Shown: in pieces, positions 1,403 to 21,006 of the stretch
Layout of the letters: every line of letters begins with the position of its first letter
Position numbering within the stretch: the stretch's first letter is position 1
Assembly (NCBI RefSeq): GCF_900105685.1
Contig: NZ_LT629781.1
Coordinates: 744,001 to 808,000 of the forward strand
DNA: 64,000 nucleotides
Reading direction: 5' to 3'
From: Verrucomicrobium sp. GAS474
GTDB taxonomy: Bacteria > Verrucomicrobiota > Verrucomicrobiia > Methylacidiphilales > GAS474
Position numbers and translations under genes: made by a program
The notes under the pieces: model-generated
Seen by the model: the letters and a program-made list of their open reading frames with translations, nothing else
Told to the model about the DNA's origin: nothing
Databases searched by the model: none

Positions 1403-2863
1403 CTAGTGGTTCATCTCCATGGGAGCCATGGAGGGAGCGGACTCATCGGATTTGGGAGAGGTCATCGGCATCGGCTTTGCTTCGGAGGTATCGACGGGCA
1501 GGAAGCCGCCCACGGCCTTTTCCAAGGCGGCCCGCGAAGTCCAATAATCGCGCCATGTTCGGATATACCCCCGCTCCGCTTCGACTTCGTGCTGTTTGGC
1601 CAGTAGGAGATCGTAGCTTCCCTTGAGCATGAAATTGTACTCCTGCTGGGAGAGCTTGAGAATGTTCACCCGCTGTGGGAGGAGCGTGCCGCGATAGTGT
1701 TCCGCGAGATTACGCCGGGCCTCGACGGTGGAGCGGGCCTCCCGGATCTCCGAGCGGACATTGACGATCAATGCCCCGAGCTGAGCCTGGGCCTGACGCA
1801 ACTGGGCCTGCAATTTCGCCACGTCGGCCTGTCCTTGATCGAAGATCGGCAGTTCGATGTCGATGGAAGGACCGGTATAGCGAGAGCGGTCGGGATTCTT
1901 TTCGGTATCGACGCCGAGGGTGATGCCACCGGGGAAGAAGCGGGTGTCTTCCTTTACCCCGAGAGCCTTTTGCAATATCTCGACCCGCTTCCGGGCGGCA
2001 GCGACGTCGAGTCGCTGGGCCAGAGCGCGTTTTTCTAGTGCCTCAGCCGAGACGGGATTGGAGGGAATGGCCGGAAGCTGGGCCGAAACGGTCCATACGG
2101 AAAGATCCTCCGTCCATCCCAGAAGACGGTTCAATGCCTCGCGGTTCTGAACGGCCTCGATACGAGCCTCGGCCAACTCGGCCTGACTTTCGGCATGGGT
2201 GGCCCGCTGGTTTTCAAGGTCGAGGTCGCTGAGATTCCCTGCCTCGTGCTGTTTGGTCGCAAGCTCGACGGCGGTGTTGTTGATGTCGTCGATCAAGCCG
2301 AGGCGCTGCACGAGTTGTTCCTGGGCCTGCACGGTGTAGAAGGCTTCCTTCACCTCAGTGGACAACATCAGGACTTCGTTGCCGACGCGAAGTTCGGTCT
2401 CCTCCAGTTGAAGTTTCGCTATCCGCTTTCGTAGCGGGAGGATAAAGAGATCGAGAAAATCCTGGGCGACGGAGAATTCCTGGTCAGCCCCGAGGGGTGG
2501 TGTACTGGGGAAGCGCACCAAGGCGCTGAAGCTCGGGTTCTTGAGAAGGCCCGCCTGCACGAGATCGGCCTGGGAGATGCCCAGTTCTTCGTAGGACGCT
2601 TGCAGGGAGGGGTTGTTCAGCAAGGCCACCTGCACCGCCGCGTCGGCGGTCAGCGGCTTGGAGAGTAGGGCTTGAACCGATTTGACGGCCTCCTGGTCCT
2701 CGGGGGTGCCCCGGTTCCAAGCAATCCGATGGCCTGTGCGATCCTGTATCGTTCCCTGAACGGTGTCGAAAGAGGCTTTGGGGTCAACCGACGCGCACCC
2801 AGCGAGCGTGAGGGCTCCGGCCGCTGAAACCAGGGAAATGAAACGAAAAGAAATCAGTGTCAT
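1403..2863 (-). CDS. TolC-family outer membrane efflux lipoprotein
   Basis: An outer-membrane channel of the OEP family, about 486 residues. The chosen start (2863) gives a lipoprotein signal with lipobox LTLAGC (Cys23) and overlaps the stop of the preceding gene as ATGA; an upstream start would put 62 non-signal residues in front. The body is rich in Ala, Gln, Glu and Leu with long helices, and has two internal repeats as in TolC/CzcC/CusC. The C-terminus is Met/Pro-rich (PMPMTSPK, SMAPMEMNH), which suggests copper contact. There is no RND pump or adaptor in this operon. It may serve as an alternative outer-membrane exit for the CzcA-type pump at 6.6-9.7 kb, or act with the oxidase in a CopB-like role. 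Confidence 0.85.
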   Translation of the reverse strand: MTLISFRFISLVSAAGALTLAGCASVDPKASFDTVQGTIQDRTGHRIAWNRGTPEDQEAVKSVQALLSKPLTADAAVQVALLNNPSLQASYEELGISQADLVQAGLLKNPSFSALVRFPSTPPLGADQEFSVAQDFLDLFILPLRKRIAKLQLEETELRVGNEVLMLSTEVKEAFYTVQAQEQLVQRLGLIDDINNTAVELATKQHEAGNLSDLDLENQRATHAESQAELAEARIEAVQNREALNRLLGWTEDLSVWTVSAQLPAIPSNPVSAEALEKRALAQRLDVAAARKRVEILQKALGVKEDTRFFPGGITLGVDTEKNPDRSRYTGPSIDIELPIFDQGQADVAKLQAQLRQAQAQLGALIVNVRSEIREARSTVEARRNLAEHYRGTLLPQRVNILKLSQQEYNFMLKGSYDLLLAKQHEVEAERGYIRTWRDYWTSRAALEKAVGGFLPVDTSEAKPMPMTSPKSDESAPSMAPMEMNH

Positions 2864-3351
2864 GGGTAGTAATCCAATCCGTAAACCAAAGTTCCGCCCA
2901 AGTGACCGACGACTGCCGTGGCGAGCGCGACTAGCCAGAGGACCACGCGGTAGAGATAAACTTCTTGTCCGGTTTGCATCATCCGGCACTGCAAGACCCA
3001 AGCAACGCAGGAGCCCAGGGCAACACCCGTCCCCAGCCATCGATGCCAAGCGAGGATCGGTTTAAGCTCTGCCTCAAAACCCATGCCAAAGGCATCGGCC
3101 CAGCCAAAGCCCGCCGCAACGAGGGCGGCGACCGCACCCAAACCCAGAGTCAATCGAATCGAGAACGTCAGCTTTTCCGAAGAGCCCCTCAAGGCGGCGA
3201 CTGCTTCCAGCAGTGCCGCCAAGAGGAGCAGGGCGATGGGAAAGTGAACAACGACCGGATGGAAAACGCCCAGCCAGTGGAGGACAACTCCTCCGGCATG
3301 GGCGCTTCCGGTCGGGGAAGCCGTCTCGGCGATCTGGGCAAGGAAAGGCAC
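2860..3351 (-). CDS. DUF2231-like integral membrane protein
   Basis: A small membrane protein with about four transmembrane segments. The first contains the motif FHPVVVHFPIALLLLAALLE, typical of DUF2231-like proteins often found beside c-type cytochromes and metal-resistance genes. His residues near the start of several helices could ligate heme or metal. The start is uncertain: I chose the GTG at 3351 (VPFLAQIAETAS), but a GTG at 3387 overlapping the upstream gene is possible. Its stop overlaps the start of the efflux lipoprotein gene, so the two are probably translationally coupled. A second protein of this type lies at 26270. Function unknown; a membrane partner of the copper oxidase is a guess. 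Confidence 0.7.
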   Translation of the reverse strand: MPFLAQIAETASPTGSAHAGGVVLHWLGVFHPVVVHFPIALLLLAALLEAVAALRGSSEKLTFSIRLTLGLGAVAALVAAGFGWADAFGMGFEAELKPILAWHRWLGTGVALGSCVAWVLQCRMMQTGQEVYLYRVVLWLVALATAVVGHLGGTLVYGLDYYP

Positions 3352-3370
3352 GAGCGCGGTTCCGGGATTC

Positions 3371-3769
3371 TTACATTCCTTTGGCACCGCCCATGGCCGT
3401 AGGGGCGGGGGCCGACGCAGCCCCGGAGGCTTTCTTGGCGGCGGCATCGTCGAGAACCTTCAGGGTGGGTGCAGGGTCTTTCTTGAACTTCCGCACGCAA
3501 GAAGGGCAGCAGAAGCGAACGAGACGGGTCGTCTCCTTGCCGCTGGCATCCTTGGCGGTGTAGAGGTAGTCGATCGGTTTGCCCATTTCTCCGCCCTCCA
3601 GCTTGTCGCCGGAGATGGGGCAGGTCGTGAGGGGGTAGGTTTTCTTCATCTCCTCGATCTGCTGCATCTGGGCGGGAGTGTAATCTTCCGCTTTAGCGGT
3701 CGGTGCCGTGAGGGCCATGGCGGCGAAGGCCATCAGTCCGAGGAGCATTCCAAAGGTCGTTTTCTTCAT
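3371..3769 (-). CDS. Exported Cys-rich (YHS/TRASH-like) metal-binding protein
   Basis: A 132-residue exported protein. The start at 3769 gives a normal Sec signal (MKKTTFGMLLGLMAFAAMAL, cleaved after TAKA); an in-frame ATG 26 codons upstream does not begin with a signal. The mature protein has CPISGDKL and then RFCCPSCVRKFKKDP, a paired-Cys arrangement like YHS/TRASH metal-binding modules, followed by an Ala/Pro/Met tail. It is the first gene of the minus-strand oxidase operon and is preceded by the promoter-like boxes at 3847-3820. A periplasmic metal chaperone or buffer role is inferred from the motif and neighbours. Confidence 0.75.
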   Translation of the reverse strand: MKKTTFGMLLGLMAFAAMALTAPTAKAEDYTPAQMQQIEEMKKTYPLTTCPISGDKLEGGEMGKPIDYLYTAKDASGKETTRLVRFCCPSCVRKFKKDPAPTLKVLDDAAAKKASGAASAPAPTAMGGAKGM

Positions 3770-3819: not shown

Positions 3820-3847
3820 AAACGAAATCCGTAGGGACATCCCTCAA
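3820..3847 (-). promoter_or_regulatory. Candidate ECF-type promoter of the oxidase operon
   Basis: On the minus strand the sequence reads TTGAGGGAT, ten bases, then ATTTCGTTT. The same two boxes with the same 10-base gap occur on the plus strand at 3872-3899. The ten spacer bases differ between copies, as expected of promoter boxes rather than a simple hairpin. This would place a transcript start about 45 bases upstream of the gene starting at 3769. Confidence 0.6.
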
Positions 3848-3871
3848 TCTTTTTTCATGGGAAACGATTTT

Positions 3872-3899
3872 TTGAGGGATCGGCCTCTCGATTTCGTTT
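3872..3899 (+). promoter_or_regulatory. Candidate ECF-type promoter of the sigma-factor operon
   Basis: TTGAGGGAT (3872-3880), ten bases, ATTTCGTTT (3891-3899): a perfect match in boxes and spacing to the divergent copy at 3847-3820. The first gene starts at 3908, so a transcript from these boxes would be nearly leaderless. Because the ECF sigma gene is the last gene of the operon served, this would be an autoregulatory loop. Confidence 0.6.
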
Positions 3900-3907
3900 G
3901 ATAGAGT

Positions 3908-4348
3908 ATGAAGACGCTCTCTTTTCCCGGAATTGCCAGGCGGTTTTGTCGGGTTACGGGAGCAATCCTCCTGACAGGCGCTATCTCCCTAGGCGTCGCA
4001 TCGGCGGAAGCCGTTCCTCTTTCGACCGCTTCCAAAGACAGCCGGATTCTCCATGTCGAGCGGGTGTTTCTCGCCCCCTATAAGGGAGGGGTGTGGGTTT
4101 CGGGTTATCTCTCCAAGACGGCGAGGCAGTCTTGGGTAAGTCCCTCGGCCCACGTCCACATCGAGGTTTTGAACGCCAAGGGTAAAATCCTTTGGGACAA
4201 ACCGGAGAACTTGAACACCTATATTCTGAACTATCCTCCTCGGGAGGGAGGCCGCGATTATCTTCATTATGGTTCTCTCATCGACAAGCTCCCGGAGGGA
4301 GCGGCGAGTGTGGTCGTGGTTTGCCATACCGACGGACACGTTCACTAA
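3908..4348 (+). CDS. Small exported protein of unknown function, HVHIE family
   Basis: A 146-residue protein with a Sec signal (cleavage near GVASAEA). I do not recognise a named domain. The mature part has the segments FLAPYKGGVWVSGYL and SPSAHVHIEVLNAKGKIL and ends in VVVCHTDGHVH. The same layout (PYKGQIYVRG, then SHVHVEWLNKAGTVV, then a His-containing end) occurs in the protein at 11789-12247, so the two are paralogues in one island. The His-x-His pairs suggest periplasmic metal binding. It is the first gene of the operon that ends with the ECF sigma factor; the next gene begins 36 bases downstream. Confidence 0.7.
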   Translation: MKTLSFPGIARRFCRVTGAILLTGAISLGVASAEAVPLSTASKDSRILHVERVFLAPYKGGVWVSGYLSKTARQSWVSPSAHVHIEVLNAKGKILWDKPENLNTYILNYPPREGGRDYLHYGSLIDKLPEGAASVVVVCHTDGHVH

Positions 4349-4384: not shown

Positions 4385-4720
4385 ATGGTTACACGCATGA
4401 AGGCTGAAGAATTCGACTGCCTCGTTGGTGATCTTGCCCGCCAACCGGTCCCGCCGCTTGATCCCCGTTTCAACGACGCCGTCTGGCGGGCGATTCGCCA
4501 GCGTAAAGCTGAAGCGCCGTCTTCGGTGTGGTCTCTTTGGGATGGATGGATTGCCGCGCTTTTGCGTCCCCAGCCGATTCTTGCCTCGTTCGCCCTAGCC
4601 GTGGCCTTCGGCCTGTTCTCGGGGGTCTTGCTGAAGGAAAGCCGTTCCGCTCCGACGACGGAGCTGAGCGTCTTCAGTGCTCACGCACCGGGAATGCTCG
4701 CAACCTTGATGGAGCACTAG
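4385..4720 (+). CDS. CnrY-like membrane anti-sigma factor
   Basis: A 111-residue protein with a hydrophilic N-terminal half (about 60 residues) and one membrane segment near ILASFALAVAFGLFSGVLL, followed by a short periplasmic tail. Length, topology and position before a CnrX-like sensor and an ECF sigma factor match CnrY of Cupriavidus, which holds the sigma factor at the membrane. Sequence similarity between such short anti-sigma proteins is low, so the call rests on context. The start may instead be the ATG at 4397 (MKAEEFD). It ends one base before the next gene. Confidence 0.7.
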   Translation: MVTRMKAEEFDCLVGDLARQPVPPLDPRFNDAVWRAIRQRKAEAPSSVWSLWDGWIAALLRPQPILASFALAVAFGLFSGVLLKESRSAPTTELSVFSAHAPGMLATLMEH

Positions 4721-4721
4721 G

Positions 4722-5162
4722 ATGCAACGCATTGTCTCTTTTGTCCTCTTGTTGGTCTTGGTATCTTTGATTGCCGCCGGAAGTTGCTTCATTGTGGGGC
4801 GCTATACCAAGAATTATCGAACTGAACCTGCGATGGGCCTCCACGCGGTGATTCATGAACGACTGAAACTGACGAAGGAACAAGACAAGCAACTCGATCC
4901 CATCGAAGCCCGCTTTGCGGAAAAGCGGCGTCACTACGCCGAGCTAATCCGCATCGCCAATACGGAACTGGCCGACGCCATCGTCGCCGATCAGGCGGAC
5001 TCCCCCCGCGTCGGGGACGCCGTGGAAAAGATTCACATGGCGATGGGCGATCTTCAAAAGGCGACTCTCGATCATGTCTTCGAGATGAAGTCGGTCCTGA
5101 CGCCGGAGCAGTATAAAATGCTGTTGGCCTTGACCGCCGAGGGACTTCGTCGTCAGCAGTAA
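4722..5162 (+). CDS. CnrX-like periplasmic metal sensor
   Basis: A 146-residue membrane-anchored protein: one N-terminal membrane segment (residues 5-26) and a helical periplasmic domain of the heavy-metal-resistance/CpxP-like fold. Counting residues gives His41, His45, Glu62, His118 and Met122. The nickel/cobalt ligands of CnrX are, from memory, His42, His46, Glu63, His119 and Met123, so all five are kept with a constant shift of one. This supports direct sensing of a divalent metal and signalling through the CnrY-like anti-sigma factor. It is preceded by the anti-sigma gene (1-base gap) and followed by the sigma gene (13-base gap). Confidence 0.8.
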   Translation: MQRIVSFVLLLVLVSLIAAGSCFIVGRYTKNYRTEPAMGLHAVIHERLKLTKEQDKQLDPIEARFAEKRRHYAELIRIANTELADAIVADQADSPRVGDAVEKIHMAMGDLQKATLDHVFEMKSVLTPEQYKMLLALTAEGLRRQQ

Positions 5163-5175
5163 GCGTCGCCCTTCT

Positions 5176-5760
5176 ATGGCGCATCCCGATCCCGACCTCC
5201 CTTTGGTCGAGGCCCTACAGCGGGGCGAAGTTCAGGCGCTAGACGCGTTGATGGAGCGCCATCGGGAGGCGGTTTTTCGATTCGTCTTCCGGTATGTCGG
5301 TAACGAGGCCGATGCTCGGGAAGTGGCGCAGGACACGTTCGTTCGAGCTTACTTCAGCATCGGGAAGTTTCGCCCTTCCGCCTTGTTTTCAACTTGGCTG
5401 TTTCAGATCGCGCTCAACCTTTGCCGGGATCGCGTGCGAACAAAAGCTTATCGACAGACCCGCCAAACCGATTCCCTGTCGAGAACGCCTGAGGAAGTGG
5501 AAGCGAGGGGGGAACATGAACTCCCCTCCTCCATTCCCGATCCCGCCGTTCTAGCTCAACAGAGCGAGAAGATGAGGGCCTTGCAGGATGCGATTAACGG
5601 ACTTCCCCATGGGCTGAAGGCCCCATTCTTGCTTGCCGTCATGGAAGGTCTTTCTCAAGAGGAAGCCGGGAATCGGCTAGGGCTAACGGCCAAAGCGATC
5701 GAGGTCAAAGTGCATCGAGCCCGTAAACTGCTTTTGAAGTGTTTGGAAAAACACTTTTAA
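5176..5760 (+). CDS. ECF sigma factor, CnrH-like
   Basis: A 194-residue ECF sigma factor. Region 2 is seen around FVFRYVGNEADAREVAQDTF with FSTWLFQIALNLCRDR after it; region 4 is the C-terminal helix-turn-helix around GLSQEEAGNRLGLTAKAIEV and HRARKLLLKCL. The linker between them (residues 90-125) is long and polar. It is the last gene of an operon with an anti-sigma factor and a CnrX-like sensor, so it is probably released on metal excess. Its targets are inferred to be the two matching promoters at 3820-3899. The next gene (5786) is convergent. Confidence 0.9.
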   Translation: MAHPDPDLPLVEALQRGEVQALDALMERHREAVFRFVFRYVGNEADAREVAQDTFVRAYFSIGKFRPSALFSTWLFQIALNLCRDRVRTKAYRQTRQTDSLSRTPEEVEARGEHELPSSIPDPAVLAQQSEKMRALQDAINGLPHGLKAPFLLAVMEGLSQEEAGNRLGLTAKAIEVKVHRARKLLLKCLEKHF

Positions 5761-5785
5761 GCATCCCCGGAATGTTCATCGTTAT

Positions 5786-6550
5786 TCAACGTAACGTCCC
5801 AGCACCTGCCGATGGCGTGTTTTTGAAGGACGCGGCGATTTTTGGAGATGCCTCTCCCATTATAGCCTTAATACGATCGAGACCTGCGTTTCTCTTGGCG
5901 AGCATGAGGTAAAGCGCCGTCGCTTCCCCGATATTGGATTGGCTGAGACCGGCGTATGCCTCCCGATCATGGGCCTCCCGATCCAACCAGATCTGATAAA
6001 AGAGAGAAACGAGCGCCTCCAATTGAACGTCCGTAAGCTTTCCTTGCGATTTGGCCATGACGTAGTACTCGCTCAGGCTGACACCGAATTTCTCAGCATC
6101 AGCACGTTCCGTCGATTCGAGCAGGGCCGTTTTTGTTTCGATAAAAAGAGCATGGTGAGAACCCGCAGCATAGCCTTTGTCTTTCAGCACCTTTCCCTCT
6201 TTGGAAATCTCTTTGGTTGCTGGTTCGCCGGTCGACACATAGATAGGCACGGCACACTCCTCGTCCTTTGCCTTTTGATAATGGTAAAGGCTAGTGGCTT
6301 TATAGATCCATCCCTGCCACACATCGCCACTCGTTAGGATGCCGGAACATCCCAGCAGCAAGGCAGTTCCTTCTCCCTCCTTAACCAGAACTCCTTTCCC
6401 TCCTTCGATTACCTGAAGCACTTTCCCCTCGAACGCAAAAATGGGCTGTTCCAATTCCTGTCTGGGCGAAGAGGGAACGGGTTCAAAGGTCTGGGCGTGG
6501 AGGGGCAGAGAGACGAGCAGAGAGGAAAAGATAAGACTGCACGTTTTCAT
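5786..6550 (-). CDS. Exported protein of unknown function
   Basis: A 254-residue protein with a Sec signal (MKTCSLIFSSLLVSLPLHAQ). I see no recognisable domain. An N-terminal segment (FAFEGKVLQVIEGGKGVLVK) looks like a small beta fold, and the C-terminal half is mainly helical. It begins 35 bases after the stop of the RND pump gene on the same strand, so it is probably the last gene of the czcCBA-type operon. It is not a usual member of such operons. Its codon use looks like the rest of the island. Confidence 0.65.
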   Translation of the reverse strand: MKTCSLIFSSLLVSLPLHAQTFEPVPSSPRQELEQPIFAFEGKVLQVIEGGKGVLVKEGEGTALLLGCSGILTSGDVWQGWIYKATSLYHYQKAKDEECAVPIYVSTGEPATKEISKEGKVLKDKGYAAGSHHALFIETKTALLESTERADAEKFGVSLSEYYVMAKSQGKLTDVQLEALVSLFYQIWLDREAHDREAYAGLSQSNIGEATALYLMLAKRNAGLDRIKAIMGEASPKIAASFKNTPSAGAGTLR

Positions 6551-6585
6551 GATCGGCTCTTTTTCGCTCTCAAATCGGTCTCACC

Positions 6586-9500
6586 CTACTGTGACGACAC
6601 GATATCTTTTTTCGTCCTTCCCTCCACCCAAACATAGAGTGACGGCAACAGAAGCAACGTCAGGAATGTGGCACTGACGATACCGCCGATGACGACTGTC
6701 GCCAGGGGACGCTGCACCTCGGCCCCGGCACCATGGCCGAAGGCCATCGGCAGGAAGCCGAGGTTGGGGACCACAGCTGTCAGAACAACGGACCGGAGGC
6801 GGGTCATCGCCCCTTCGCGCACAGCTTCTTCGACAGTGCGGCCCTTTTCTCGAAGTTGATTGAAGTAACTGACCATCATTACGCCGTTGAGGACGGCGAC
6901 CCCCGACAAGGCGATGAAGCCCACGCCCGCGCTGATGCTGAAAGGGAGCCCGAAGATCCAGAGAGCGAAGATACCGCCGGTCACCGCGAGGGGAATGCCG
7001 CTGTAGACCAACAACGCCTGCCGGAGGCTTCCGAATGCCATGAAAATCAGGACAAAGATCACCAGCAGCGCGACGGGGACGATGACGGCGAGCCTCGCCC
7101 GGGCCTCCTGGAGGTTCTTGAAGGCCCCGCCGAACTCGATGGTGTAGCCGGGCTGCAATTTGACCTGCTCCTTCACCTTCTGCTCCGCCTCACGGACGAA
7201 ACCCTCCACATCCCGACCCCGCAGGTTCACCATGATGGCGGCGCGGCGCTGGCCGAACTCGCGGGTGATCGCGTTGACCTTGTCGTCGACGCTAAGGGTC
7301 GCCACCTGCCCGAGGGCCAGATAGCCACCCTCGGCGGTGCGGACCGGAAGAGAGTTGATGACGGAGCGGTCCTTCCTCGATTCCTCCGGCATCCGAACCA
7401 CAATGGGGATGCGCTGGTTTCCCTCAATCAGCTTTCCCGCCTCCTCCCCGGCGAGCGCGGTGGTCACGACCTCGTTGATCTCCTTTGCATGGAGGTTGTA
7501 ACGGGAGGACGCCTCCCGGTTCAGGTTGATCTGGAGGAGGGGGGCGCGGCCTAGGGCATCGAACTCGACGTCGGCGGCTCCCGGCACCTTTTCCAGAATG
7601 CTTCGGGTTTCCCCGGCGATGCGCTCGATCTCGTCATAATCAGTCCCGAAAATCTTCACCGAGATGTCGGCGCGCGTACCCTCCAGAATCTCGTTGAACC
7701 GCATTTCGATGGGCTGCGAAAACAGGAGGGATTGCCCGGGAACCTCCACCTGAAGCTCTTTCTCCATAAGATTGGTGAGATCCTCCTTCCCGATCCGACG
7801 ACCGTCCACCTTCCTCCATTCCGACTGCGGCTTGTAGAAAATGTACATGTCGGCGACGTTGATACCCATGGGGTCGGTCGCTACTTCGGCGGTGCCGATG
7901 CGGGAGAAGGTGCGGGTCACTTCGGGGAACTTTTCCCGCAGCACCTGCTCGGTCCGCTCCTGCATCGCCAGTGCAGCAGTGAGGCTGATACTGGTGGGCC
8001 GGATGATGTTTGCCGTTATCGAGCCCTCGTCGAGCCGAGGGACAAAGACGGCACCGAGACGGAAGAAGACGACCAACGAAAGGGCGAAGACCGCCAAGGC
8101 GCCCCCCATGACCACCCAGCGACGACGAATCGCGAAGTCGAGCGCTGGACGGTAGAGCGCCTTCAGCCACCGGATCGCGAGATTGTCCCCTTCGCTGATG
8201 CGGCCCTTCAGGATGAAGGAACAGAGGACGGGCATGAGCGTCAGGGCCAGCAACAACGCACCGCCGAGCGCGAAGATCACCGTCTCGGCCATCGGCTTGA
8301 ACATTTTCCCCTCCACTCCGGTCAGGGAAAGGATCGGGATGTAGACGATGGTGATGATGAGGACGCCGAAGAAGGTCGGCGATCCAACTTCCTTGGATGC
8401 GGACAGGATCGTGTGCATCCGCTCTTCGGTCGAGAGTACCCGCTTCAACTCGTGCTGGCGCTCGGCCAGACGGCGGACGATGTTCTCTACGATGACGACA
8501 GCACCGTCGATGATGAGGCCGAAGTCGATGGCTCCGAGGCTCATCAGGTTTCCCGAGATTCTCGTCTGCACCATCCCGCTGATGGCAAACAGGAAGGAGA
8601 GCGGGATCGCCACGGAGACGATCAGCGCAGCCCGCCAGTTCCCCAGGAGCAGGAGCAATCCGACGACCACGAGGACGGCTCCCTCGAAGAGGTTCCGCTC
8701 CACGGTCGCCACGGTCCGGTCGACGAGTTCGGTCCGGTCGTAGACAGTGCGGATTTCGACGCCTTCGGGGAGGGTCTTCTCGATGTCCTTCAACTTCGCC
8801 GCGACCCGCTTGGCGACGACCCGGCTGTTCTCGCCCGTGAGCATGAGCGTCGCCCCCAGGACCGATTCCTTCCCGTTAGAGGTGGCGCTGCCGGTTCGGA
8901 GGCTCGTTCCGATTCCGACCTCGGCCACGTCCTTGATCTTCAACGGTGTCGCCCCGGCCCGGAACTTCACCGGAAGATTGCCGATTTCCTCGACGTTCTT
9001 GACCCGCCCATCGGCCCGGATGGCAATCTGCTCCCCGCCGATCTCGACCGCTCCTCCTCCGGCGTTCTCGACATTTTCCTTCACCACATCGGCGATCTCA
9101 CTGAAGGTGACGCCGGTGGAGAAGAGGCGGTCGGGTCGCGCTTGGATTACCACCTGCTTTTCGTAGCCTCCCTGGGAATTGACCTCGGCGATGCCTTGGA
9201 CCGTCCGCAGCTTGGGCTTGATGACGTAGTCATGGAGCTGGTTCAACTCCATCAACTGCTGCTCACGGGTTTCCGGTTTCCCGGCAAAGCCGTCTTTGTA
9301 ATCGACGATATAGTAGAAGATTTCTCCCAGGCCCGTGGTGATCGGGGCCAGTTCCGGGGCAACGCCCCGGGGAAGATCTTCCGACGCTCCGAGCATCCGC
9401 TCGCTGACGAGCTGACGAGCCCGGTAGATGTCGGTTCCGTCCTCGAAGACCAGGGTTAACTGGGAGAGGCCGAATTTTGATAGCGACCGCATCTCGACCA

Positions 9501-9735
9501 TGCCGGGGATACCCGACATCGACGTTTCGAGCGGGAATGTGACCAGTTTTTCGATTTCCTCGGGGGCGAACCCCTTGACAGAACTGTTGATCTGGACCTG
9601 GATGTTGGTGATGTCGGGAACGGCATCGATGGGCAGCTGGGACGCGGACCAAAGGCCCGCGCCGAGGAGGGCGACGGTCGCCAGCAGGACAAAGACCCGC
9701 TGACGCATGGAGAATTCGAGAATCTTGGAAATCAT
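6586..9735 (-). CDS. czcA: Heavy-metal RND efflux pump, CzcA type
   Basis: A 1049-residue inner-membrane proton/metal antiporter of the HME-RND family. Two large periplasmic loops alternate with 12 membrane segments. The fourth segment reads GAIDFGLIIDGAVVIVEN and contains Asp404, Asp410 and Glu417, which match CzcA Asp402, Asp408 and Glu415 needed for proton coupling. This DFG...D...E pattern is typical of exporters of divalent cations (Zn, Co, Cd, Ni) and not of the Cu/Ag pump CusA. The start is 4 bases after the adaptor stop. With the CnrX-like sensor nearby, Co/Ni/Zn/Cd is the most likely substrate range. The family call is firm, the ion is inferred. Confidence 0.93.
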   Translation of the reverse strand: MISKILEFSMRQRVFVLLATVALLGAGLWSASQLPIDAVPDITNIQVQINSSVKGFAPEEIEKLVTFPLETSMSGIPGMVEMRSLSKFGLSQLTLVFEDGTDIYRARQLVSERMLGASEDLPRGVAPELAPITTGLGEIFYYIVDYKDGFAGKPETREQQLMELNQLHDYVIKPKLRTVQGIAEVNSQGGYEKQVVIQARPDRLFSTGVTFSEIADVVKENVENAGGGAVEIGGEQIAIRADGRVKNVEEIGNLPVKFRAGATPLKIKDVAEVGIGTSLRTGSATSNGKESVLGATLMLTGENSRVVAKRVAAKLKDIEKTLPEGVEIRTVYDRTELVDRTVATVERNLFEGAVLVVVGLLLLLGNWRAALIVSVAIPLSFLFAISGMVQTRISGNLMSLGAIDFGLIIDGAVVIVENIVRRLAERQHELKRVLSTEERMHTILSASKEVGSPTFFGVLIITIVYIPILSLTGVEGKMFKPMAETVIFALGGALLLALTLMPVLCSFILKGRISEGDNLAIRWLKALYRPALDFAIRRRWVVMGGALAVFALSLVVFFRLGAVFVPRLDEGSITANIIRPTSISLTAALAMQERTEQVLREKFPEVTRTFSRIGTAEVATDPMGINVADMYIFYKPQSEWRKVDGRRIGKEDLTNLMEKELQVEVPGQSLLFSQPIEMRFNEILEGTRADISVKIFGTDYDEIERIAGETRSILEKVPGAADVEFDALGRAPLLQINLNREASSRYNLHAKEINEVVTTALAGEEAGKLIEGNQRIPIVVRMPEESRKDRSVINSLPVRTAEGGYLALGQVATLSVDDKVNAITREFGQRRAAIMVNLRGRDVEGFVREAEQKVKEQVKLQPGYTIEFGGAFKNLQEARARLAVIVPVALLVIFVLIFMAFGSLRQALLVYSGIPLAVTGGIFALWIFGLPFSISAGVGFIALSGVAVLNGVMMVSYFNQLREKGRTVEEAVREGAMTRLRSVVLTAVVPNLGFLPMAFGHGAGAEVQRPLATVVIGGIVSATFLTLLLLPSLYVWVEGRTKKDIVSSQ

Positions 9736-9739
9736 GGGA

Positions 9740-10516
9740 TTATTCGCCTGCGCCGCTCTTGGTGGCGCGGAGTTCGATGAGGTAGAGAGTTTCGACGGAT
9801 TTGGCCGCCACGGTGGTTCCTTCCTGGAGGCCTTCGGTGACTTCGACGGCCACTCCCGATGCGGTGCCGACCTGGATCGGTTGGCGCAAAAGGCGGTCGC
9901 CGTTCTTCACGTAAGCGAAGGTTCCCGTCGCTGTCTTCAGAACAGCGGTGGCCGGGATGCTCAGGCCTTCGGGTCGGGAGGCCGCCGATTCGATTTCGGA
10001 GGGGACGAATGCTCCGACCGCCAAGCGGCCAGCGGGGTCCGGCACCTCGATCAGCATCTCGCTCTTGCCCGTGACGGCGTTTTGCGTGGTATCGATCTTC
10101 CAGAGGACGCCTTCCCTCGGCTCGCCTTTGAAACGGGCGACCAACCCGGGCTTCAGGCCGGTCAGGGTGTCCGAGGGAAGCGTTGCCGTCAGGTAGGCAA
10201 ACCCGGCCTTTTCTCCGCCGTACCGCAACGACGGTTCCGTTGCGGCACGATAAACCTGGGCCGTCACGGAAAGGCTCGGCTGAAAGGCCTGCTTTCCCAC
10301 CGCGACGAAGGCGAGGCCGATGGCGGCGCGGGAGCGCTCGCCTAGGAGTAAGCCTTTGCCGTCCTCGTAAGAGGGTTCGTCCGAGCCTTCCGAGGTGGGG
10401 GCCTCCGCATTTTTTCCCTCCGCGACGGACTTCGGCTTCTCGGAAACCGGTTTGTCGCAACCCGCGACCAGCATCGCCGCCAATGCCAATCCGAGCCAAT
10501 ACGGGGTGATCTTCAT
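9740..10516 (-). CDS. czcB: Periplasmic adaptor lipoprotein of the RND pump, short form
   Basis: The start at 10516 gives a lipoprotein signal with lipobox LVAGC (Cys20). At 258 residues it is far shorter than CzcB/CusB proteins (about 400-520). The C-terminal beta-barrel and membrane-proximal segments are present (LPSDTLTGLKPGLVARFKG, then IPATAVLKTATGTFAYVKNG), but the sequence passes straight from the N-terminal strand (LSVTAQVYR) to the barrel, so the lipoyl and alpha-hairpin section seems missing. The reading frame is intact and both neighbours couple tightly (ATGA overlap upstream, 4-base gap downstream), which argues against a pseudogene. Confidence 0.8.
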   Translation of the reverse strand: MKITPYWLGLALAAMLVAGCDKPVSEKPKSVAEGKNAEAPTSEGSDEPSYEDGKGLLLGERSRAAIGLAFVAVGKQAFQPSLSVTAQVYRAATEPSLRYGGEKAGFAYLTATLPSDTLTGLKPGLVARFKGEPREGVLWKIDTTQNAVTGKSEMLIEVPDPAGRLAVGAFVPSEIESAASRPEGLSIPATAVLKTATGTFAYVKNGDRLLRQPIQVGTASGVAVEVTEGLQEGTTVAAKSVETLYLIELRATKSGAGE

Positions 10517-11775
10517 TTCAGTTCTCCTTCGGCGTGGCCGGTAAGCAGTTCGATGTCGAGGATGTCGCTCCATGCGCTCAAGACCGCCTCGTTGCGGGAT
10601 TGTTGTACCGACAGATACCCCCGCTGCGTTTCCAGAAAGAGTTGGATGCCGATGACGCCGGTCCGATACTGGCGGTCGGCCAGCGCGGCGGCTTCGCGCA
10701 ATTCGGAGACGATCCCTTCCGGCGTCTTGGCAAGTTGCTTTTGAACCAGCTCGTAGGAGCGAAGCCGACGCAGGATCTCGGCTTCGGTCTTGCGGCGCGC
10801 GTCGAGGAGCAGCGCGTCGGCCTGCTCCCGCTTTGCTTTCGCCGCTGCGATGTTCCCCTGATTCCAGTCCCAGAGCGGCAGGGTGGTCGAGAAACCGATG
10901 CCAACGTTCTCCTCGTTGTCACCAGCCCGGTCTTGGCTGAAGAACGGCCCCACCGCGAAGTTCGGAGCGATGTCGAGTTTGGCGGCGGAGACACTACGAA
11001 CCGCCTTTTCCAGTTCGACGATCCGCGTCTTCAGCAATAGGTTGCCCGCGAGTCCTTGCAGGACGAGGGTATCTCGGTCCAGCGTCAAGGAAGGGAGGGA
11101 GAGTGGCGTCTTGATCCGCAACGGCTGGCTGGCTGGAAGGCCCAGCAGCCGGTTCAACTCCAGGGCCGCTTCGTCCCGTTGGCGCGTGGCTTCCCGAACA
11201 CCCTTCTGCAATTCGATCAGGCTCCCCTGGATGATCCGGAGTTCGAGGAATTGCTGCGTTCCGGCGGAGGACCGCTCGCCCAACAGTTTGACCAAGGCCG
11301 TGCTCCGCTCCTCGACCTCCCCGGCGGCCTCCGCCTGCTCGGAGGCGGCGAGGTATTGGTAGGCGAGGGAGCGGATCTGCCCGGCCAGTGCCAAGCGAAA
11401 CTGCCGTAGACCCAGCTCGGCGATTTCGATTTCCTTGTTGGCGATGGCCTTCCGCAGGGAACCCTTGCCCGGGAACTCAAAGGTCTGAGAGAGGGACGCG
11501 CTGCGGGTGAATCCGTCCGCGAGGGAGCCGGACTCGCCGTTCGTCACGCGCCGTTGGCCGTATTCCCCGGTAAACTCGGGGTTCTTCCACAAGCCCACCT
11601 TCGTACGCTCTCCTTTGGAGGCGGCGACTTCTGCCTCGTAGTATTTCATCTCGGCGTTCCGCGCGAAGCCCTGCGCCACCAGCTCCTCAACCGTGTATGA
11701 CACGGGTGGTGTCTCGGCCCAGCCGACTGTGTTCAAAAGGAGCAGAAATGCTCCAACCACTGTGATCTTCCTCAT
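10513..11775 (-). CDS. czcC: Outer membrane efflux protein of the RND pump, CzcC-like
   Basis: A 420-residue OEP-family protein with a Sec signal ending near GWAETPP. The text GLWKNPEFTGEYGQRRV and the paired helical repeats are typical of CzcC/CnrC, which form the outer-membrane duct of HME-RND pumps. Its stop overlaps the adaptor start (ATGA). A gene for a small exported protein ends 13 bases upstream. Alternative: a CusC-like protein, but the pump in the operon is of the divalent-cation type. Confidence 0.88.
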   Translation of the reverse strand: MRKITVVGAFLLLLNTVGWAETPPVSYTVEELVAQGFARNAEMKYYEAEVAASKGERTKVGLWKNPEFTGEYGQRRVTNGESGSLADGFTRSASLSQTFEFPGKGSLRKAIANKEIEIAELGLRQFRLALAGQIRSLAYQYLAASEQAEAAGEVEERSTALVKLLGERSSAGTQQFLELRIIQGSLIELQKGVREATRQRDEAALELNRLLGLPASQPLRIKTPLSLPSLTLDRDTLVLQGLAGNLLLKTRIVELEKAVRSVSAAKLDIAPNFAVGPFFSQDRAGDNEENVGIGFSTTLPLWDWNQGNIAAAKAKREQADALLLDARRKTEAEILRRLRSYELVQKQLAKTPEGIVSELREAAALADRQYRTGVIGIQLFLETQRGYLSVQQSRNEAVLSAWSDILDIELLTGHAEGELK

Positions 11776-11788
11776 CGAATACTCCGAA

Positions 11789-12247
11789 TTAGGATCGCGT
11801 GTCCGACTTCTTACAGTAGGCGTGCGGGTAGCCGTGGTAGACCACCCGGACCGCCTCGGCTCCGCGCACCTCGGAGGGCGCGAAGGAGACCGAATAAGGC
11901 CCCCTCGGCGACAGGGCCGGGGTTCCCGAAAACAGGACAGCTCCGGTTTTCATCGCGACCACCGTCCCGGCCTTGTTCAGCCACTCGACATGGACGTGGC
12001 TGGCCGGAGAACCCCCACTGTCCCGGCGCACCATGCCCCGGACGTAGATTTGGCCCTTGTAGGGCTCCGCTTCGGTCGAGAGGACCCGCCGCGTCTTGTC
12101 CTCGATGATGCGGACGTGCAGGGCGGGTTCGGTGGTTTTGGCGTTCAGCGTGGGGCTGCTTCCCGACAGGAAGACGAAGGCGAAGGCCACGGCGAAGAGG
12201 CCGAGGGAAATCTTCTGAGACAGATGTTTTGCGAAAGAGAGAGACAT
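11789..12247 (-). CDS. Small exported protein, HVHVE family (paralogue of the 3908 protein)
   Basis: About 152 residues; the start at 12247 (MSLSFAKHL) gives a Sec signal cleaved near TLNA. Unknown function. It shares with the 3908-4348 protein the segments EPYKGQIYVRGMV and SHVHVEWLNKAGTVV and a His-containing C-terminal end (YHGYPHAYC), in the same order. Each copy begins or precedes a metal efflux operon. It lies 13 bases before the CzcC-like gene and is probably the first gene of that operon. Confidence 0.7.
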   Translation of the reverse strand: MSLSFAKHLSQKISLGLFAVAFAFVFLSGSSPTLNAKTTEPALHVRIIEDKTRRVLSTEAEPYKGQIYVRGMVRRDSGGSPASHVHVEWLNKAGTVVAMKTGAVLFSGTPALSPRGPYSVSFAPSEVRGAEAVRVVYHGYPHAYCKKSDTRS

Positions 12248-12339
12248 ATTCTGATTCCAGGTAGCCGGAACGCACGAGGCGTACGGCATGGTTGAGACGC
12301 GATGCCCGATCCCGAAAGGGATGGGCGAGGGTCAGGAGA

Positions 12340-15945: not shown

Positions 15946-15975
15946 TTGACATTCATGCGTAAAAGCGCATATGTA
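15946..15975 (+). promoter_or_regulatory. Candidate ars promoter and ArsR operator
   Basis: On the plus strand, TTGACA (15946-15951) lies 18 bases before TATGTA (15970-15975). Between and touching them is the inverted repeat ATGCG-TAAAAG-CGCAT (15955-15970). Binding of the repressor here would block the -35/-10 interval. The site is just upstream of the thioredoxin reductase start (15988). Confidence 0.55.
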
Positions 15976-15987
15976 TTAATAGGCCCT

Positions 15988-16917
15988 ATGCCTGAAAATC
16001 TTGTCATTATCGGTTCCGGCCCTGCCGGGTGGACGGCTGCCATCTATGCCGCCCGCTCGAACATGAAACCCCTTCTTGTCACCGGCCAACAACCCGGCGG
16101 TCTCCTGACGACCACCTCCATTGTTGAGAACTACCCCGGCTTTCCCCAGGGCGTGGATGGCAACGACCTGATGGCGGCCCTTCAGGAACAGGCCAAACGA
16201 TTCGGCACCAAGGTGCAGTACATGAGCGTTGTCGATCAGGTCGATTTCTCCCAGCGCCCCTTCAAAATCACCGTCGATGGGGAAGTGATCGAGGCCAAGA
16301 CAGTCGTTATCTCGACCGGAGCGGGCCACCGGCACCTCGGCATTCCCGGCGAACATGAGTTCGAAAACAAGGGCGTCACCTACTGCGCCACCTGTGACGG
16401 CGCACTCCCTCTCTTCCGCGACAAGCCTCTCGTCGTGGTGGGCGGGGGTGACTCGGCCTGTGAGGAGGCCACCTACCTGACGCGATTCGGTTCCATCGTC
16501 TACCTCGTCCACCGCCGGGATACCCTACGGGCTTCCAAGATCATGGCCGACAGGGTACTTTCCAATCCCAAGATTAAGCCCGTCTGGAACGCCGCCGTGG
16601 AGGAAGTTCTCGGCGAGAAAAGCGTTACCGGCGTCCGCCTCAAGGACACCGTGACGGGGGAGAGCCGCATCCTCGACTGCGCAGGGGTCTTCGTCGCCAT
16701 CGGCCACGTCCCCAACACCCAGCTCTTCAAGGGCCAGATTGACCTAACCGAAGCGGGCTACGTCGATTTGAAGGCCGGAAGCCGAACCAACATCGAAGGC
16801 GTCTTCGCGGCAGGTGACTGCGCCGATCACGTCTACCGGCAGGCGATCACCGCCGCAGGGATGGGGTGCGCCGCCGCCATCGACGCCGAACGCTTTCTTT
16901 CCCGCTCCACCACCTAA
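15988..16917 (+). CDS. trxB: Thioredoxin reductase in the ars operon
   Basis: An FAD/NADPH-dependent oxidoreductase of 309 residues. The start at 15988 (MPENLVIIGSGPAGW) puts the FAD-binding GxGxxG at the N-terminus; an upstream in-frame ATG would add 14 residues. The redox pair is CATCD (in YCATCDGALPLF), the NADPH site is VVVGGGDSACEEA, and GVFAAGDCAD closes the FAD domain. It is the first gene of the arsenic operon. Thioredoxin-coupled arsenate reductases follow, so it probably keeps thioredoxin reduced during arsenate detoxification. It may also be a second, specialised copy of the housekeeping enzyme. Confidence 0.93.
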   Translation: MPENLVIIGSGPAGWTAAIYAARSNMKPLLVTGQQPGGLLTTTSIVENYPGFPQGVDGNDLMAALQEQAKRFGTKVQYMSVVDQVDFSQRPFKITVDGEVIEAKTVVISTGAGHRHLGIPGEHEFENKGVTYCATCDGALPLFRDKPLVVVGGGDSACEEATYLTRFGSIVYLVHRRDTLRASKIMADRVLSNPKIKPVWNAAVEEVLGEKSVTGVRLKDTVTGESRILDCAGVFVAIGHVPNTQLFKGQIDLTEAGYVDLKAGSRTNIEGVFAAGDCADHVYRQAITAAGMGCAAAIDAERFLSRSTT

Positions 16918-16932
16918 ACCAAGGAGAACGCC

Positions 16933-17448
16933 ATGGATACCAGCAAGCCCTTCAAGATTCTCTTCCTCTGCACCGGGAACACCGCTCGGAGCGTTTTCGG
17001 AGAATTCCTCATCAAGCGGATCGGCCAAGGCCGGTTCGAGTCGTACAGCGCCGGGGCGAACCCCAAAGGGAAGGTGAACCCCTACACCCTTCGCGTCCTG
17101 AGCGAGATTTATAAGATCGACGCCTCCTCCGCTCGGAGCAAAGGCTGGGACGAATTCAGGAACGTGCATTTCGATTTCGTCATCACGGTCTGCGACAATG
17201 CCCGCGAGTCGTGCCCGGTCTGGCCCGGTCAGCCGATTATTGCCCACTGGGGCTCGCCTGACCCCGCCTCCTTCGTGGGGACCGAGGATGAAATCCTCGC
17301 CAACTTCACAAAAGTCGCCTTCCAGATTCAGCGCCGTATCGAACTCCTTTGCTGTCTGCCCTTTGAAAAGCTCGACCGGCTCCGGCTGGTCGAACTGACC
17401 AAGGACATCGGCTCCAAAGAAACCCTCAACTCCACCATGCCTACTTGA
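16933..17448 (+). CDS. arsC: Low-molecular-weight-phosphatase-type arsenate reductase, first copy
   Basis: A 171-residue protein with the catalytic P-loop CTGNTAR near the N-terminus and a distal Cys in CDNARESCPVWPG. This is the LMW-PTP fold used by ArsC of the thioredoxin-coupled type and by related ArsH-linked forms. A good ribosome site (AAGGAG) precedes it. It differs clearly from the second copy at 17733 in its longer, helical C-terminus (QIQRRIELLCCLPFEKL). Reduction of arsenate to arsenite is the likely role; a different electron donor from the second copy is possible. Confidence 0.85.
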   Translation: MDTSKPFKILFLCTGNTARSVFGEFLIKRIGQGRFESYSAGANPKGKVNPYTLRVLSEIYKIDASSARSKGWDEFRNVHFDFVITVCDNARESCPVWPGQPIIAHWGSPDPASFVGTEDEILANFTKVAFQIQRRIELLCCLPFEKLDRLRLVELTKDIGSKETLNSTMPT

Positions 17449-17508
17449 TGACCGTGCTGCTTTCCTTTTTATTCGACTCGCCGACAGGGAAAGGCATCAC
17501 TGTGAAGT

Positions 17509-17736
17509 ATGACCATCCTCTCCCTCTACGGCTTCGTGTCGGTCTCCTTGATGCTCCTCTTCTATGCCTTGGAGCATCGCTCGCATTGGTTCGTGTTGGC
17601 CTTTGCGGTCTCGTGTCTCATGTCGTCCATCTACGGCTTTTTACAGGGGGCATGGCCCTTTGGACTAGTCGAGGGCGTCTGGACGCTCGTTGCCTTGAAA
17701 CGTTGGTTCTCACTTAAATCCCCTCCCACTCCATGA
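17509..17736 (+). CDS. Small membrane protein in the ars operon
   Basis: 75 residues with about three hydrophobic segments ([37 protein letters not shown], and a third at [16 protein letters not shown]). It overlaps the next gene as ATGA, so it is translationally coupled to the second arsenate reductase. I do not recognise a named family with certainty. A GTG a few bases upstream could be the start. It may modulate the ACR3 exporter, but nothing in the sequence shows this. Confidence 0.6.
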
Positions 17737-18170
17737 ACAAGCCCTCCGTCCTTATCCTCTGCACCGGCAATTCCTGCCGCAGCCACCTCGCCGAAGGTAT
17801 TCTCCGCAACTACGCCGGGGATCTCTTCGACGTTCACAGCGCCGGGTCGAAGCCTGCCGGGTACGTCCACCCGAAGGCGATTCAGGTCATGCAGGAAATC
17901 GGCATCGACATCTCCGGCCACTCCTCCAAGAGCATGAACGAGTTCTTGGACAAGAAGGTGGACATCGTCATTACCGTCTGCGGGAATGCCGATCAGGCGT
18001 GTCCCATGTTTCCCGGACAGGTCAGCCGCCACCACTACGGCTTCGACGACCCCGCCCACGCCGAAGGAACCGACGAGGAAGTCCTCGCTGTCTTCCGTCG
18101 AGTCCGCGATGAAATTCGCCGTCTCTTTGAAGCCTATGCCGATGGTCGGCGCGATGCTCTGAAAGCCTAA
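17733..18170 (+). CDS. arsC: Arsenate reductase, thioredoxin-coupled LMW-PTP type, second copy
   Basis: A 145-residue protein with the P-loop CTGNSCRS, in which the second Cys is typical of the thioredoxin-dependent ArsC of pI258 type, and the distal [13 protein letters not shown] carrying the other redox cysteines. It reduces arsenate to arsenite using thioredoxin, which fits the reductase gene at the head of the operon. The start overlaps the upstream small gene (ATGA). Confidence 0.92.
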
Positions 18171-18196
18171 CCCTCAACCCCGTCACTCCTATACCC

Positions 18197-18700
18197 ATGA
18201 AAACCTCCGAATTCGTCCAACTCATTGCCGAACACCCGACGAAGCTCCTCCGCTTCCTCGATCACCAGAAGACCGTCGTTCATCCTTCCTATCATGTCTC
18301 CGAGGTGAAGACGGCGACGTTCGAGACGGTCGACTGCGGCGGAATGGCCCACCACTGGAAAGAGACGATCTTCCAGCTCTGGCTTTCCGATGATCCCGAT
18401 TCGGAGCGGGCGATGGCGACGGGGAAGGTGACGGGCATTCTGGAGAAGGTCTCGAAGCTCATTGCCGTCGATCTCGATACGGAACTGCGGATCGAATACG
18501 GCAACGAGGAATTCCCTCCGGTCGTCTTCCATATCGACAAGATCGCGGTCGAGACGGATGCAGTCGTCGTCTCCCTTCGTCCCCCGGTGCTGCAATGCAA
18601 GCTGGAGGAGCGGGGTAGCTCCTGCGCTCGCCCGGAAGAGGCCCCGGCTGACGCGAAGGAAGAGAGCGGCTCCTGCTGTTCGGGAACCAAGTGCTGCTAG
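18197..18700 (+). CDS. DUF6428-type protein with Cys-rich tail
   Basis: A 167-residue protein of the kind often found between arsC and ACR3 genes and named DUF6428. It has a compact alpha/beta core (KTSEFVQLIAEHPTKLLRFL, HPSYHVSEVKTATF, DCGGMAHHWKETIFQLWL) and a polar linker ending in CCSGTKCC. The terminal double-Cys pairs could hold arsenite. Biochemical role is not established. It is followed after 8 bases by the exporter gene. Confidence 0.75.
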   Translation: MKTSEFVQLIAEHPTKLLRFLDHQKTVVHPSYHVSEVKTATFETVDCGGMAHHWKETIFQLWLSDDPDSERAMATGKVTGILEKVSKLIAVDLDTELRIEYGNEEFPPVVFHIDKIAVETDAVVVSLRPPVLQCKLEERGSSCARPEEAPADAKEESGSCCSGTKCC

Positions 18701-18708
18701 GTCATTCC

Positions 18709-19785
18709 ATGACGACCTCCAATACATCGGTTAAGCAGCTCGACTTCTTCGAGCGGTACCTATCGGTCTGGGTGCTGGCCTGCATGGTCATCGGCATGGC
18801 CTTGGGCCTCCTCTGTCCCGGCCTGACAACTCGACTCTCCGAGTTTGAATTCGGGGCCGGCTCCCACGTCAACGTCGCTATCGCCGTTCTGATCTGGCTC
18901 ATGATCTACCCCATGATGCTGAAGATCGACTTCGGAGGTTTGGGCGGAGTCTTCACCAAGCCGAAAGGGCTTTTCATCACTCTCTTTGTCAACTGGATCG
19001 TGAAGCCCTTCAGCATGGCGTTACTCGGCTGGCTCTTCTTACAGAAGGTCTTTGTCGGCGCTGGATGGATGGATTCCGAAACTGCGAAGAACTACATCGC
19101 CGGGCTCATCATCCTCGCCGCCGCCCCCTGCACGGCAATGGTCTTCGTCTGGAGCTACCTGACGGACGGCGACGGGCATTACACCCTGGCTCAGGTCGCC
19201 ATCAACGATCTCATTATGGTCTTCGCCTTCGCGCCGATTGTGATGCTCCTCGTCGGCGTCACCGGGGTACACATCCCCAGCAACGTTCTGTTGATTTCGG
19301 TAATCGTCTTCATCGTCATCCCCCTCGTTTCCGGTTGGTTCAGCCGGAGCGTTCTGATTCGAACCAAAGGGCTGCCTTGGTTTGAAGGAGATTTCCTTCC
19401 AAAATTCCGGCCTGTCACAATCGTGGCGCTGTTGGCCACCCTAGTGCTGATCTTCGCTTTCCAGGCTCAGAACATTCTCGATCACTGGACAGCAGTCTTC
19501 CTGCTCGCCATTCCCATTCTGATCCAGGTCTACTTCAATGCGGGCCTGACCTATTGGTTGATGCGCTTCTTCGGCGTGAAACACAACGTGGCAACGCCGG
19601 GAGCCCTCATCGGAGCCAGCAACTTTTTCGAGCTGGCGGTCGCCGTGGCAATCACCCTCTTCGGCCCAAAATCCCCCGCCGCCCTGGCAACGGTGGTCGG
19701 TGTCCTGGTCGAGGTGCCGGTGATGCTTTCGGTCTGCCGCGCGTGCATCGGATCGAAGAAGTGGTACGAAGAGAAGGCTTCTTAA
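18709..19785 (+). CDS. acr3: ACR3-family arsenite exporter
   Basis: A 358-residue inner-membrane protein with ten hydrophobic segments. The start at 18709 (MTTSNTSVKQLDFFERYLSV) is preferred over a GTG six codons upstream. Diagnostic segments are LAAAPCTAMVFVWSYLTDGD, with the conserved arsenite-binding Cys, and GASNFFELAVAVAITLFG. It exports As(III) made by the two reductases. It is the last gene of the operon and is convergent with the integrase, 9 bases apart. Confidence 0.95.
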   Translation: MTTSNTSVKQLDFFERYLSVWVLACMVIGMALGLLCPGLTTRLSEFEFGAGSHVNVAIAVLIWLMIYPMMLKIDFGGLGGVFTKPKGLFITLFVNWIVKPFSMALLGWLFLQKVFVGAGWMDSETAKNYIAGLIILAAAPCTAMVFVWSYLTDGDGHYTLAQVAINDLIMVFAFAPIVMLLVGVTGVHIPSNVLLISVIVFIVIPLVSGWFSRSVLIRTKGLPWFEGDFLPKFRPVTIVALLATLVLIFAFQAQNILDHWTAVFLLAIPILIQVYFNAGLTYWLMRFFGVKHNVATPGALIGASNFFELAVAVAITLFGPKSPAALATVVGVLVEVPVMLSVCRACIGSKKWYEEKAS

Positions 19786-19794
19786 AAGTTCATT

Positions 19795-20874
19795 TCATCG
19801 AACCGATTCAGCCAATACTGGCTGCATTTGGAATTCGATGATCTTTTTGGCCTTTTCCGTTTCGTAATGCTCGATAGGGAGGGTGGCAGTTAACGCACCC
19901 CTGCCATACGCGGCATGGATGGCCCGCGATTTGTGTCCAAGGTGATTCATCGCGTCCCGTTCCGGCATCCCTGCCGCACGGGCGCGCTGGGCCCACGCAT
20001 AGCGGTAAGAATGAAGCACCCGACTCTCAATCTTGAGCGTCCGGCAACGGCGTTTGAACTCAGCAGCGCGATGCTTTGGCTCTTCCTGTCGAATGATCGG
20101 GAAGAAGTACCCCGTCTGCGGGAGCTGATCCAAAATGGTTTGCAGTTTGGAGCCGATATACAGGCAACTCGCCCCGCCGCCCAATCCGTCTCCCTTCCCT
20201 TCCAGCTTCCTACGGGAAAAGGTGATCTGCCGGTTTTCTAGATCGACGTTCTTCCAACTCAAGGTGGCAATGTCGGTCTGAGAACCGCCTGTCTCCCATA
20301 GGAGCTGATAAAACAGCCGCCGCTCCGGATTGTTTTCCCGCTCGATGATCCGCTGATGCTCGTCCTCCGGGATCGCCTCAAATTTCTTCCTCCGCATCGT
20401 GGGCCAAGCAGCCTCGGCCATAACCGGGGCTAGAAGCCATCCTAGATGTAGAGCGAAATTGTGAAGACGCTTCAGGTAGTGGTATGTCGAATTTCCCGCC
20501 TTCTTGTGTTCCAAAACGGTGAAGAGATGAATCGCCTCCGTTTCAATGATCTTCACCGGACGCAGCATGGCAAAGGGACGGCTTCGGAAGGCGCGTTCCT
20601 TGCGGTCGCGGGTCGATTCGACCCCCGACTTGACGTACATCTCCATCACATCCGTCCATGTCCGTTGCGTGAACTCGGGCGAGGTGGCCGAGAGATAGGC
20701 TTTGGCCATGCTCTTGTTGAGCGAGGGTTGCTCAACGGCTTGGTTTTTCGCCGCGATGAGGCGGCGGGCCTGTGAAAGGTCTTGGGTGCCCAAGCTCTCC
20801 TTCTTCATCGTGACGGTATCCCGGGCGTAGTAGGTTCCGCCATTGCGGCGGAAAATCCGGTAACGATCTTTCAT
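19795..20874 (-). CDS. Tyrosine integrase of the resistance island
   Basis: About 359 residues from the ATG at 20874 (MKDRYRIFRRNGGTYYARD). An arm-type N-terminal domain, a SAM-like core-binding domain and a C-terminal catalytic domain are visible. Box II is intact (HSYRYAW giving His-x-x-Arg, then LGHKSRAIHAAYGR with the second His and the nucleophilic Tyr). The box I arginine, normally in TGLRxxE, is replaced: the sequence is ETGGSQTDIATLSW. The gene reads away from the tRNA-Asn 3' end and lies 200 bases from it, the usual layout of a tRNA-targeting integrase. Confidence 0.88.
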   Translation of the reverse strand: MKDRYRIFRRNGGTYYARDTVTMKKESLGTQDLSQARRLIAAKNQAVEQPSLNKSMAKAYLSATSPEFTQRTWTDVMEMYVKSGVESTRDRKERAFRSRPFAMLRPVKIIETEAIHLFTVLEHKKAGNSTYHYLKRLHNFALHLGWLLAPVMAEAAWPTMRRKKFEAIPEDEHQRIIERENNPERRLFYQLLWETGGSQTDIATLSWKNVDLENRQITFSRRKLEGKGDGLGGGASCLYIGSKLQTILDQLPQTGYFFPIIRQEEPKHRAAEFKRRCRTLKIESRVLHSYRYAWAQRARAAGMPERDAMNHLGHKSRAIHAAYGRGALTATLPIEHYETEKAKKIIEFQMQPVLAESVR

Positions 20875-21006
20875 CGGTGGTCTCCGTTTCGAGAACGAGA
20901 CTACCGGCGTTCGGGCAACTTCCCTTAGCGAGCTGTAACCGGATTCAAGACCGTTGAGCACGGCTCATCCGAATCACATCACTATCGGGGCGGTCAGGCC
21001 CAAAAC

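Follow-up and report, generated by a model that had tools for sequence, protein, structure and literature searches.

Two promoter sites with identical boxes lie back to back between two divergent operons of Verrucomicrobium sp. GAS474, and we put at about 0.86 the probability that both serve as ECF-sigma promoters for the sigma factor encoded at 5176–5760, which metal would free so that both operons are switched on. All coordinates refer to the window, the whole stretch of 64,000 nucleotides that was analysed. Through the twin copies, a metal-sensing switch probably activates both its own genes and the neighbouring copper-oxidase/efflux operon. The promoter recurs in many related soil bacteria, usually with a near-leaderless placement of the first gene.

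Each site consists of the −35 box TTGAGGGAT and the −10 box ATTTCGTTT, separated by 10 bp. Promoter P(+) occupies 3872–3899 on the plus strand (−35 box, 3872–3880; −10 box, 3891–3899) and faces the g3908-Y-X-sigma operon. Promoter P(−), with boxes identical to those of P(+), is read on the minus strand from 3847 to 3820 and faces the operon of YHS, DUF2231, outer membrane factor (OMF) and multicopper oxidase (MCO) genes. Both are exact matches to the pair described by the sequence-only reading, and the gene layout agrees with its assignment of one promoter to the oxidase operon and the other to the operon that ends with the sigma gene. The gap between the two 28-bp sites, i.e. between the −35 boxes, is 24 bp. 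The two 10-bp spacers share the same base at four positions out of ten, which is about chance level and consistent with their having been called unrelated.

With up to three mismatches allowed, the window contains just these two sites, against 0.02 expected from shuffles, and the whole genome adds only one more, at three mismatches. The genome-wide search for the boxes that had been proposed was also run with the core GAGGGAW-N14-CGTT, and the two sites are its only matches in the 3.76-Mb genome; the reversed pattern gave three, and about three are expected from base composition. The many copies away from promoters that would have spoken against the proposal were not found, the core having no further match in the genome. 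Chance as the origin of the motif is ruled out by the shuffles and the genome-wide search.

The plus operon shows the gene order of CnrYXH-type systems, a small transmembrane protein followed by a Metal_resist sensor and an ECF sigma factor. X (4722–5162, plus strand) is a CnrX-like periplasmic metal sensor of the Pfam Metal_resist family (PF13801); in the PDB search, all seven matches are CnrX or NccX, with a best E value of 9e-18. His41, His45, Glu62, His118 and Met122 of X are invariant in a 13-sequence alignment that includes CnrX, and they align with the CnrX metal ligands His42, His46, Glu63, His119 and Met123. The ECF sigma factor, of CnrH type (5176–5760, plus strand), is 194 residues in length. 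It falls within a 19-row clade (support 100/98) made up solely of Y-X-linked sigma factors, CnrH included, in which the CnrH branch is long and its placement unsure; in the PDB sequence search AlgU and SigW score better than CnrH. The description of the sigma factor as CnrH-like is supported by the X ligand set, the PDB matches of X, the clade shared with CnrH and the promoter likeness.

Y (4397–4720, plus strand, alternative start 4385) is a single-TM anti-sigma candidate, assigned from its position and from aligned N-termini. Both Y and CnrY are short single-TM proteins, and hhalign detected no profile similarity between them. The first cistron, g3908 (3908–4348, plus strand), encodes a secreted beta-sandwich protein of ∼140 residues. 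Its predicted fold is Ig-like, with weak matches to NPC2, IrmA and DUF1425, and the Pfam search returned no match for the family. Relatives of g3908 sit after the same promoter in L004, L008, L009/L167 and the same-genus genome G001. Members of the family have a signal peptide and conserved His residues, and a C-terminal Cys is often present; an apparent paralogue (11789–12289, minus strand) is located directly upstream of the cusCBA-like operon.

The minus operon starts with a YHS/TRASH-like secreted protein that contains cysteines (3371–3769); its match to TRASH/YHS is weak and homologues occur elsewhere. It is followed by a DUF2231 membrane protein (2860–3447 as the longest ORF, the true start being probably just inside 3371), an outer membrane efflux protein (OEP, 1403–2863) and a multicopper oxidase with a Tat-like signal (122–1393). 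The RND operon of the window (6586–11775; Cus-type, CusA/CzcA family) has no motif within one mismatch. It was ruled out as a third target for want of a site, although some relatives do have the motif there. Here the regulon appears to comprise the two promoters P(+) and P(−), the effector being the oxidase operon; in Cupriavidus, by contrast, the RND operon is under the motif. The metal-resistance region as a whole (1–21000) has a G+C content of 60%, compared to 66% in the remaining window, and carries a tyrosine recombinase at 19795–20961; it is probably a genomic island. An arsenic cluster (15946–19785), with thioredoxin reductase, arsenate reductase-like and ArsB/ACR3-like genes, lies in the same island. 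A separate ECF sigma gene (24608–25153) and the downstream gene, whose protein has an HxxxCxxC-like motif, form a classic zinc anti-sigma pair (23811–25153, minus strand) unrelated to the twin promoters.

The content of the target operon bears on the nature of the signal. We infer a signal that is Ni/Co-like rather than Cu, because the ligand set of X matches that of CnrX; yet the target operon looks copper-related. The sigma control could be right and the signal copper instead of nickel or cobalt, and this we regard as a serious alternative with a little under even odds. It would suit a multicopper oxidase operon as target: the MCO, OMF and TRASH/YHS-like proteins are typical of copper handling, and a CusA/CzcA-family RND operon adjoins. 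Against copper stands the invariance of all five residues at the Ni/Co ligand positions of CnrX, including the methionine, the equivalent of Met123, which CnrX requires for Ni/Co signalling (PMC7689651).

The exact two-box pattern, when searched in 60 relatives, matched nowhere except in its own genome, so a relaxed core and a protein-guided search were needed. A scan for sigma relatives, together with one for relatives of X in 388 genomes of the phylum, gave 36 Y-X-sigma loci with a locatable Y start, from Verrucomicrobiota and Pseudomonadota. They were scored for [GA]AGGG[ATG][ATG]-N14/15-CGT[TA] on the coding strand, at most 160 nt upstream. The motif was present in 29 of the 36, compared to 0.12 expected from dinucleotide shuffles, and absent from the other seven. 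Its spacing is 14, but 15 in one family (f12), in L127 and, as read by this pattern, in CnrH. A blind search of the 388 genomes for the motif with an ATG at +13 returned 20 sites, against five for the reversed control. At least three of these precede X genes; the others probably represent noise for the most part, and the analysis was therefore based on the protein-guided loci.

Second divergent copies of the motif, near the sigma operon, occur in six other loci (L004, L008, L109, L112, L113 and same-genus G001); in the same-genus case (L184) the twin copies are at 16658 (minus strand) and 16751 (plus strand). In the alphaproteobacterial and several other loci, a second copy lies after the sigma gene and before efflux genes. 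In the genome of L004, six of the nine core matches are located inside a 17-kb metal-resistance contig. The YHS-DUF2231-OMF-MCO operon carries its own motif copy in two other families, where P(−) thus has equivalents. In genome G076 (locus L175), the motif is present both at the Y-X-sigma operon and at the divergent YHS-DUF2231-OMF-MCO operon; the MCO is 58% identical to that of the window. Both G076 promoters have a spacing of 15, so the spacing varies together within one genome. In genome G443 (L009/L167), the motif belongs to an operon in which a g3908-like gene precedes YHS, DUF2231, OMF and MCO. These two genomes show the two operons of the window in independent arrangements, and they provide the best evidence that one sigma factor serves both. 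This cross-species footprint and the recurrence of the same effector operon with the motif give good support to the proposal that a single metal-controlled sigma factor drives itself and the oxidase operon.

In the same-genus locus L185, the motif of the orthologous operon has diverged to GAGGGCT-N15-CGTTTA, Y starts 16 or 25 nt beyond the C, and no site was recognised at the YHS operon; a TonB-dependent receptor-like gene (4641–6818) is situated between the divergent YHS-OMF-MCO and Y-X-sigma operons. The metagenome-assembled genome (MAG) of L007 is labelled Klebsiella pneumoniae, but its Y-X-sigma-RND locus clusters with sequences from alphaproteobacterial MAGs; it is probably a mislabelled or contaminated bin.

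A second Y-X-sigma-like system (L183, C1:737193–738215, minus strand) is found ∼6 kb left of the window, where it adjoins a YHS-like gene and an RND operon; a counterpart is present in same-genus L184. Its X has diverged and, on visual inspection, seems to retain few of the Cnr ligands. The genome encodes other ECF sigma factors as well, so the promoters might be read by one of them, for example by the sigma factor of this second system (737193–737738, ∼10 kb off and 38% identical), or by both in cross-talk. We consider this improbable, because the second sigma factor lies outside the clade of the window sigma factor, its own operon is without GAGGGAW-N14-CGTT, and in other genomes the motif accompanies the clade that contains the window sigma factor. 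To judge from these sequences, the two neighbouring systems are likely insulated from each other.

The motif resembles the CnrH promoters of Cupriavidus, with which it shares the GGG core and a CGT at nearly the same distance. On Cupriavidus pMOL28, the starts are at 53286 and 54660 (PMC9045368); mapped onto the sequence, they fall 12 nt beyond the C of CGT in both cnrYp and cnrCp, whose boxes are AGGGGGA-N14-CGTATA and AGGGGAA-N14-CGTATA, respectively. An alternative in which the two sites are operators, arranged symmetrically between the divergent operons and bound by a one- or two-component regulator, is highly improbable: the layout and the GGGAT halves, palindromic in L004 and L008, are operator-like, but the motif is directional, keeps a fixed distance to the ATG, stands single at many operons, resembles the CnrH promoters with mapped starts and tracks the ECF sigma gene across phyla.

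For P(+), the ATG at 3908 is located 13 nt past the C of CGT. Together with the mapped 12-nt starts, this offset predicts a transcript start at 3907–3908 and a leader of 0–1 nt, and the almost leaderless plus-strand transcript of the sequence-only reading agrees with the start near 3907 expected from the Cupriavidus rule. For P(−), the start predicted from Cupriavidus is at about 3812, with a leader of ∼43 nt to the ATG at 3769. Among the Verrucomicrobiota, the first start codon is exactly 13 nt past the C in 17 of 22 loci; these loci are phylogenetically non-independent, and a binomial value is only indicative. The remaining offsets are 14, 14, 17, 18 and 20 nt, L185 being additional to the 22. 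The sequence between the C and the start codon varies among the loci, and one start codon is GTG. The predicted near-leaderless placement is conserved beyond this locus. In the proteobacteria, the ATG is 31–38 nt past the C.

Shine-Dalgarno sites were found at about 6 of 20 curated gene starts in the window, which suggests SD-poor initiation in Verrucomicrobium sp. GAS474, and this scarcity fits SD-independent initiation. Leaderless translation may be favoured during metal stress. Tentatively, and with a probability clearly below even, a distance of exactly 13 nt between promoter and start codon may be maintained in Verrucomicrobiota to make the message of the first cistron in the sigma operon leaderless, as a conserved device setting the output of anti-sigma factor and sensor under metal stress.

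In the mechanism that we propose, Y would keep the sigma factor at the membrane when metal is absent. Binding of a divalent metal by X in the periplasm would cause Y to release it. RNA polymerase with the freed sigma factor would initiate at P(+), giving g3908-Y-X-sigma and hence autoactivation with feedback via Y, and at P(−), giving the oxidase operon. The P(+) message would start at the first AUG or one base before and would be translated as a leaderless mRNA, and the P(−) message would have a short leader. We infer sigma binding at the sites, and likewise the metal-triggered release of the sigma factor, by analogy with CnrYXH, and the transcript starts, from Cupriavidus.

In our open-access literature search, no paper on such a system in Verrucomicrobiota was found. 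The predicted sigma factor, sensor, promoter sequence and two target operons form one testable package in this phylum. The exchange of effectors (RND pump, CPx-type ATPase, copper-oxidase operon) with sensor and promoter retained points to a modular CnrYXH switch. With the −10 box and the ATG at so strict a distance, leaderless translation can be tested directly in a group that seems poor in Shine-Dalgarno sites.

Like CnrYXH of Cupriavidus metallidurans pMOL28, the system described here has the Y-X-H order, the metal-ligand positions of CnrX, the GGG...CGT promoter core with N14–15 spacing, a promoter before Y for autoregulation and a second promoter for effector genes. Different from CnrYXH, in which the effector is the downstream CnrCBA RND system, here it is the divergent MCO/OMF/DUF2231/YHS operon; the extra gene g3908 precedes Y, Y has no recognisable homology to CnrY, the −10 element is CGTTT instead of CGTAT, and the leader of ∼24 nt is replaced by a predicted leaderless start. 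Compared with CnrYXH, it is new that the target operon has been rewired, that the twin layout recurs and that the predicted leaderless spacing is fixed. The alphaproteobacterial MAG cassettes (L005, L006, L010, L012, L015 and L016) share GAGGGAT-N14-CGT before Y, usually again after the sigma gene, but they are leadered, as their ATG offset indicates, and their targets are RND efflux genes. CorE of Myxococcus xanthus is a copper-dependent ECF sigma factor that carries a cysteine-rich domain at its C-terminus and lacks a linked anti-sigma factor (PMC3107203). Control of a multicopper oxidase gene by an ECF sigma factor under metal is common to both, by prediction here; a CorE-type sigma factor was ruled out, since the sigma factor of the window does not extend beyond region 4 and has a single Cys close to its end, and Y and X are linked to it. 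As in other leaderless bacterial mRNAs, the start codon is predicted to be at or adjoining the 5′ end of the transcript; different from them, the leaderless spacing here is tied to the promoter of one sigma factor and is conserved across several families.
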